A stretch of 64,000 nucleotides of DNA from a virus. The position numbers and the translations under genes are program-made. This document shows positions 23,150-23,611 of the stretch, in pieces. The stretch is taken from positions 1 to 64,000 of IMG/VR virus record IMGVR_UViG_3300045974_000166; one strand, given 5' to 3'. The notes under the pieces are model-generated. The model did not search any database. It worked only from the letters and a program-made list of their open reading frames with translations, and had not been told where the DNA came from. How positions within the stretch are numbered: the stretch's first letter is position 1; each line of letters starts with the position of its first letter.

Positions 23150-23182
23150 GATGGGCCTTTCGGCCCATCAAAGTTTTGTTTG
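23150..23182 (+). terminator. Terminator closing the late (+) region
   Basis: A perfect 8-bp stem GATGGGCC/GGCCCATC with a 4-nt loop (23150-23169) is followed by a T-rich stretch. On the other strand the loop is GAAA. It lies at the convergent junction with the tmRNA gene. Confidence 0.85.
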
Positions 23183-23217
23183 GATGATAAGGAACAATTT
23201 CTAATCCTCAGCTTGGC

Positions 23218-23250
23218 TTAAGCAGCCAGAGCAAATTTCTCGTCGTTTGC
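23218..23250 (-). other. tmRNA tag reading frame (ANDEKFALAA, stop)
   Basis: Ten codons and TAA, preceded by CTCTCTAACT, which resembles the resume-codon context of betaproteobacterial tmRNAs. The tag ends in ALAA, the ClpXP-type degron end, and differs from the common betaproteobacterial ANDERFALAA by one residue as I recall it. The stop codon lies in a hairpin GGCT-GCTTA-AGCC, comparable to helix 5 of bacterial tmRNA. Confidence 0.92.
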
Positions 23251-23336
23251 AGTTAGAGAGTTTTACTTTTAACGTCTATCTGTGACGAGGTGCCCAAAAA
23301 GATACTCTTTTCGTGGTCGATCGCTATGTCAGCCCC

Positions 23337-23436
23337 ATCAAAAGTACTCATGGCGTATATGGGCGAGTCCATTGCTGGAGAGTTTACCTGGGATGCCAAA
23401 CCTGATCAAGTATTACTACAAGATTTAGAGTACTTT
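23337..23436 (-). other. Intervening segment of the permuted tmRNA precursor
   Basis: The 100 nt between the encoded CCA and the 5' acceptor strand begin with AAAGTACTC and end with GAGTACTTT, a 9-bp perfect complement. Together with the acceptor stem and partial pairing of ACCA with TGAT, this gives a nearly continuous 20-bp helix in the precursor, which would hold both pieces in register before processing. Confidence 0.8.
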
Positions 23437-23505
23437 TGGTGGAGCTGCCGGGACTTGCACCCGGGTGTCACAATCATTTCACAATCTGAGTTTACACCCA
23501 TTAGA

Positions 23506-23611
23506 TTATAGCTACATTTTGAGCATAGTCTTGCCACTTACTATAAGACTATTCCACAAGCAGAGCTCGAGTATGTAACTTGTGAGGCAAATACTCAAAA
23601 TGTAGCTATAA
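23506..23611 (-). ncRNA. Structured leader of the tmRNA precursor (three-way junction)
   Basis: An 18-bp perfect inverted repeat (23506-23523 with 23594-23611) encloses two further hairpins: 8 bp (23525-23532 with 23545-23552) and 6 bp (23555-23560 with 23579-23584). It lies directly upstream of the acceptor piece, and its outer edge coincides with the expected start of transcription from the late-type promoter at 23616. It may be a precursor leader or part of the mature acceptor piece; the sequence alone cannot tell. Confidence 0.6.

Follow-up and report, generated by a model that had tools for sequence, protein, structure and literature searches.

Anatomy and neighbourhood of the gene

The window, i.e. 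the first 64 kb of a viral record of 192,097 bases, carries a tmRNA gene at a junction where plus-strand late genes meet a minus-strand block of small genes. Read 5' to 3' on the minus strand, the order of its parts is T-arm, acceptor 3' strand with CCA, intervening segment (IVS), acceptor 5' strand and tag:

23437-23499, minus strand: acceptor piece (T-arm, acceptor 3' strand, encoded CCA), from direct reading and the Rfam model
23464-23448, minus strand: T-arm with T-stem CCGGG/CCCGG
23447-23441, minus strand: acceptor 3' strand CAGCTCC
23439-23437, minus strand: encoded CCA, within the ACCA that follows the acceptor strand; the CCA end is 23437
23337-23436, minus strand: IVS of 100 nt, predicted to be excised
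23428-23436, minus strand: 5' arm of the IVS stem, AAAGTACTC
23341-23349, minus strand: 3' arm of the IVS stem, GAGTACTTT, by which the acceptor helix is prolonged into the IVS
23340-23337, minus strand: TGAT, following the 3' arm of the IVS stem
23330-23336, minus strand: acceptor 5' strand GGGGCTG, with G1 at 23336 as the predicted RNase P cut
23274-23290, minus strand: hairpin CGTC/GACG on the 5' side of the tag, with its arms paired in the Rfam model
23218-23250, minus strand: tag frame GCAAACGACGAGAAATTTGCTCTGGCTGCTTAA, encoding ANDEKFALAA (codons 23250-23221) and a TAA stop (23220-23218)
23150-23169, minus strand: 3'-terminal hairpin GATGGGCCGAAAGGCCCATC, between the late genes and the minus-strand block
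23506-23526 and 23591-23611, no strand assigned: arms of a 21-nt inverted repeat (95%) directly upstream of the tmRNA, the right arm overlapping a TATAAT

The two acceptor strands pair at seven of seven positions, including the alanine identity pair G3·U70, and the tag has a hydrophobic, degradation-type end. All parts that the earlier note had read from the sequence (T-arm, CCA, 100-nt spacer, GGGGCTG and tag), as well as their order, were found where it had placed them. The Rfam model RF04321 (tmRNA_permuted) matches 23499-23218 on the minus strand with 103 bits (cut-off 47, E = 5.8e-19), and RF01850 (beta_tmRNA) matches 23546-23147 on the same strand with 87.8 bits, which is marginal at a cut-off of 84 (E = 4.2e-25). 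The beta-tmRNA match in permuted order, which the note had named as support, was obtained, together with a match to RF04321 that stands further above its cut-off. RNA folding of the region gave z = -5.2, none of 100 dinucleotide shuffles being as stable.

According to PHROG matches to a UvsX-like recombinase, a DnaB-like (gp41-type) helicase, the terminase large subunit, topoisomerase II and an SbcC-like protein, the phage is T4-like; the nearest named relative of its terminase is that of Synechococcus phage BUCT-ZZ01 (50%). Together with the Rfam matches and the complete acceptor stem, these matches bear out what the earlier note had read here, a T4-like phage with a tmRNA gene in permuted, two-piece form. 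The tmRNA region and a 25-kb part of the window were each searched at DNA level against 50,697 phage records, with no match for either.

The RF01850 match extends beyond the hairpin at 23150-23169, which is likely a terminator common to the tmRNA and the convergent plus-strand late genes. The inverted repeat on the other side has no aligned counterpart in the related contigs L312 and L314 (see below), and was for this reason kept out of the tmRNA. A motif family, TTTACACATAAT-N-GTATAAT, occurs in nine exact copies between 26206 and 55114 of the window (minus strand) and in five further copies at 131-151 kb of the record (plus strand), many of them immediately 5' of ATG starts. These are probably the early promoters of the phage; no copy lies in front of the tmRNA. 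A plus-strand ORF across the IVS (23290-23511) was judged to be a chance ORF, having no PHROG match and no convincing tblastn relative. Neither SmpB nor SspB gave a family match anywhere in the 192-kb record, which may be incomplete. We therefore assume that the host proteins are used, and the tmRNA presumably relies on host SmpB.

Selection on structure and proposed function

Relatives were gathered by a terminase search, which yielded contigs at 81-92% protein identity. In L312, L314 and L315 the tmRNA directly follows the terminase, and we regard them as syntenic homologues; in the window, two genes separate terminase and tmRNA. The sister genes lie at 7715-8011 in L312 and at 6458-6730 in L314. 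For L313, whose terminase protein is 92% identical, no tmRNA match was found in its stretch downstream of the terminase, which suggests that the gene is dispensable and comes and goes between sister phages.

Compensatory changes were sought in an alignment of the window, L312 and L314. The acceptor stem is identical in all three, G·T third pair (G3·U70) included. Elsewhere, pairs are changed on both sides: four in the IVS stem, with changes in both arms, two in the tag-proximal hairpin (both in L314) and one in the T-stem, where a G-C pair is replaced by T-A in L314 with pairing kept. The IVS stem is general among the phage loci, and its arms match their own partners (8.5 of 9 bases paired) better than arms swapped between phages (6.0). 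The paired changes and the constant acceptor stem are the mark of selection for structure, not of decay. Inspection of the alignments by eye gave the tags ANDEKFALAA for the window, ANEERFALVA for L312 and ANDAYFLVAANA for L314, the last without the usual LAA end. Given this variation between relatives, rescue may be more important than tagging.

The mechanism we propose is drawn from the bacterial two-piece tmRNA; bacterial permuted tmRNAs function as two pieces, as PMC11915505 cites from Keiler 2000. The minus strand would give rise to a single precursor transcript, in which the acceptor helix would run about 9 bp into the IVS and present the CCA and G1 in the manner of a pre-tRNA. RNase P would cut at G1 (23336) and the 3' tRNA-processing nucleases after the CCA (23437), so that the 100-nt IVS is removed and two RNAs remain joined by acceptor-stem pairing. 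The G3·U70 pair would direct alanine charging by host AlaRS, and host SmpB would bring the charged RNA to ribosomes stalled on broken mRNA. Addition of ANDEKFALAA would then permit release of the product and its degradation by host proteases of the ClpXP type. The phage would probably benefit in that ribosomes stay available during cleavage of host or phage mRNA. It is plausible, as the earlier note suggested, that the gene serves to control ribosome rescue during infection. As one explanation for the locus, a permuted phage tmRNA with two-piece processing, alanine charging, host-SmpB rescue and ANDEKFALAA tagging is in our judgement highly probable.

It is improbable that the phage RNA instead acts as a decoy or inhibitor that blocks rescue by competition with host tmRNA, be it for SmpB or for stalled ribosomes. 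There is a precedent in the tag-less tmRNA-like RNA of mycobacteriophage DS6A, which inhibits host tmRNA (PMC11915505), and the tags differ among the sister phages. However, the DS6A RNA lacks a tag frame, whereas the tag frame, resume region and degradation-type ending of the window gene are all intact. Still less probable is a decaying, nonfunctional copy captured from a host. This would fit the outcome of ARAGORN, which called only a tRNA-Met in the window and missed the tmRNA, and the several non-standard pairs joining the two pieces in the Rfam model, but decay is at odds with compensatory changes and a constant acceptor stem in three divergent phages, and with the intact tag frame. An ordinary one-piece tmRNA accounting for the same parts is very improbable, no supporting point having been found: the CCA end precedes the 5' strand, the permuted models score best, and the standard one-piece model RF00023 was not reported in the window by the Rfam scan.

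Permuted tmRNAs of other phages and the content of their IVSs

The window gene is a real circularly permuted phage tmRNA, but it has known predecessors in other viruses, where such genes prove to be common. The earlier note knew of one-piece phage tmRNAs only; that permuted ones are unknown is not supported. Of 133 unique phage tmRNAs in a survey of 2022, 53 were suggested to be two-piece, with phage Melnitz as a reported case (PMC9004378), and at least seven phage isolates examined here carry a permuted gene, with Stenotrophomonas, Xanthomonas, Pseudomonas, Alcaligenes and Acinetobacter as hosts. A tmRNA database of 2025 holds 79 phage sequences. With a stem detector, we collected 186 distinct permuted loci, nearly all viral, from IMG/VR using tag, length-window and acceptor patterns plus one ORF-biased pattern; the terminase search and non-viral collections contributed a few. 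ARAGORN, the tool of the 2022 survey, called 162 of the 186 permuted and can miss complete two-piece tmRNAs, the window gene being one of the 24 uncalled. The RF04321 cut-off was passed by 49 of 50 contigs, 48 of the 50 having been picked for the acceptor signature. Complete two-piece tmRNAs occur in phages outside the described groups, in support of the view that ribosome rescue, with reliance on host SmpB, is widespread among phages.

The newest element is found in related loci, in which a stable RNA gene conceals micropeptide ORFs in the segment to be excised, the IVS; the IVS of the window has no ribosome-site-led ORF. Among 43 permuted genes of bacteria, IVS length is 4-47 nt and no ORF occurs, whereas phage genes sampled by tag have a median IVS of 83 nt. 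We counted ORFs that are led by a ribosome site, start within about 30 nt and cover at least 60% of the IVS. Such an ORF is present in 30 of 132 phage IVSs of at least 60 nt (samples not chosen for ORFs, only identical IVSs removed), compared with 3.4 expected from dinucleotide shuffles and 7.0 from shuffles keeping the stem arms, a contrast that is somewhat inflated as the criterion was fixed after the first examples had been seen. Of these 30 ORFs, 22 terminate at the UGA within the UGAU adjoining G1, and 23 look transmembrane (1.3 expected); most products are single-transmembrane peptides of 21-41 aa.

With the ORF-biased sample included, 42 IVS ORFs fall into 21 sequence clusters (loci L022, L067, L074, L092, L098, L104, L120, L121, L447, L459, L477, L494, L510, L517, L588, L604, L611, L662, L681, L705 and others). 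Some clusters show purifying selection: between L092 and L681, members of one cluster, there are 12 synonymous changes and 1 non-synonymous change, other pairs being less one-sided. The Pfam family CxxCxxCC matches the 86-aa IVS product of L104 above its cut-off. Also, the IVSs of L174 and L164 have a zinc-ribbon-like ORF, which in L174 continues past G1 into the tmRNA coding piece. Three phage families with IVS ORFs were sought among isolates; one was unmatched, and two led to permuted-tmRNA isolates with IVSs lacking such ORFs. A literature search, most subscription journals being outside its reach, found no published IVS ORF; one permuted gene with a tRNA-Ala inside its IVS has been reported (PMC11915505).

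We lean towards the view that the IVS serves phages as a cargo slot. Roughly one in four long IVSs would hold a small gene, usually for a single-transmembrane peptide of 21-41 residues, with the ribosome site in the CCA-side stem and the UGA abutting the RNase P site at G1, so that folding and processing of the precursor could control the peptide. The non-coding window IVS would then represent an empty or RNA-only state of the slot.

Origin and comparison with known two-piece tmRNAs

Capture from a betaproteobacterial host, as proposed in the earlier note, is not borne out: the RF01850 score is barely above the cut-off, and a tree joins the gene to phage tmRNAs, with weak deep support. The 87.8 bits of the window gene compare with 160-305 bits for 15 bacterial genes. 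In the tree, a clade of the window gene with L312 and L314 (99% local support) falls among phage genes, outside the 14 bacterial beta genes included, the deep branches being weak. The betaproteobacterial genes were obtained by a separate genome search; a scan of genomes with a T-arm/acceptor pattern gave mostly actinobacterial and other tmRNAs, not those of betaproteobacteria.

The window gene matches the betaproteobacterial model over its full length, and its tag differs by one residue from the betaproteobacterial ANDERFALAA. On the other hand, the acceptor strand is CAGCTCC instead of CACCTCC, the IVS is 100 nt instead of 4-42 nt long, and the CCA, often unencoded in betaproteobacterial genes, is encoded. 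Alphaproteobacterial tmRNAs (RF01849) share the gene order, and several of them have an IVS stem and UGAU|GGGG; however, RF01849 is not the best-scoring clan model for the window gene, and the alphaproteobacterial T-loop and tag differ. The permuted tmRNAs of Methylophilales phage Melnitz, Stenotrophomonas phage Marzo, Pseudomonas phage PA_L9, Alcaligenes phage QDWS595 and others share gene order and a tag frame with the window gene. The isolates read here likewise have an encoded CCA and an IVS stem prolonging the acceptor helix, most of them also TGAT before G1, whereas the window gene differs from the known phage genes in its beta-type Rfam match, its tag and the absence of detectable DNA similarity.
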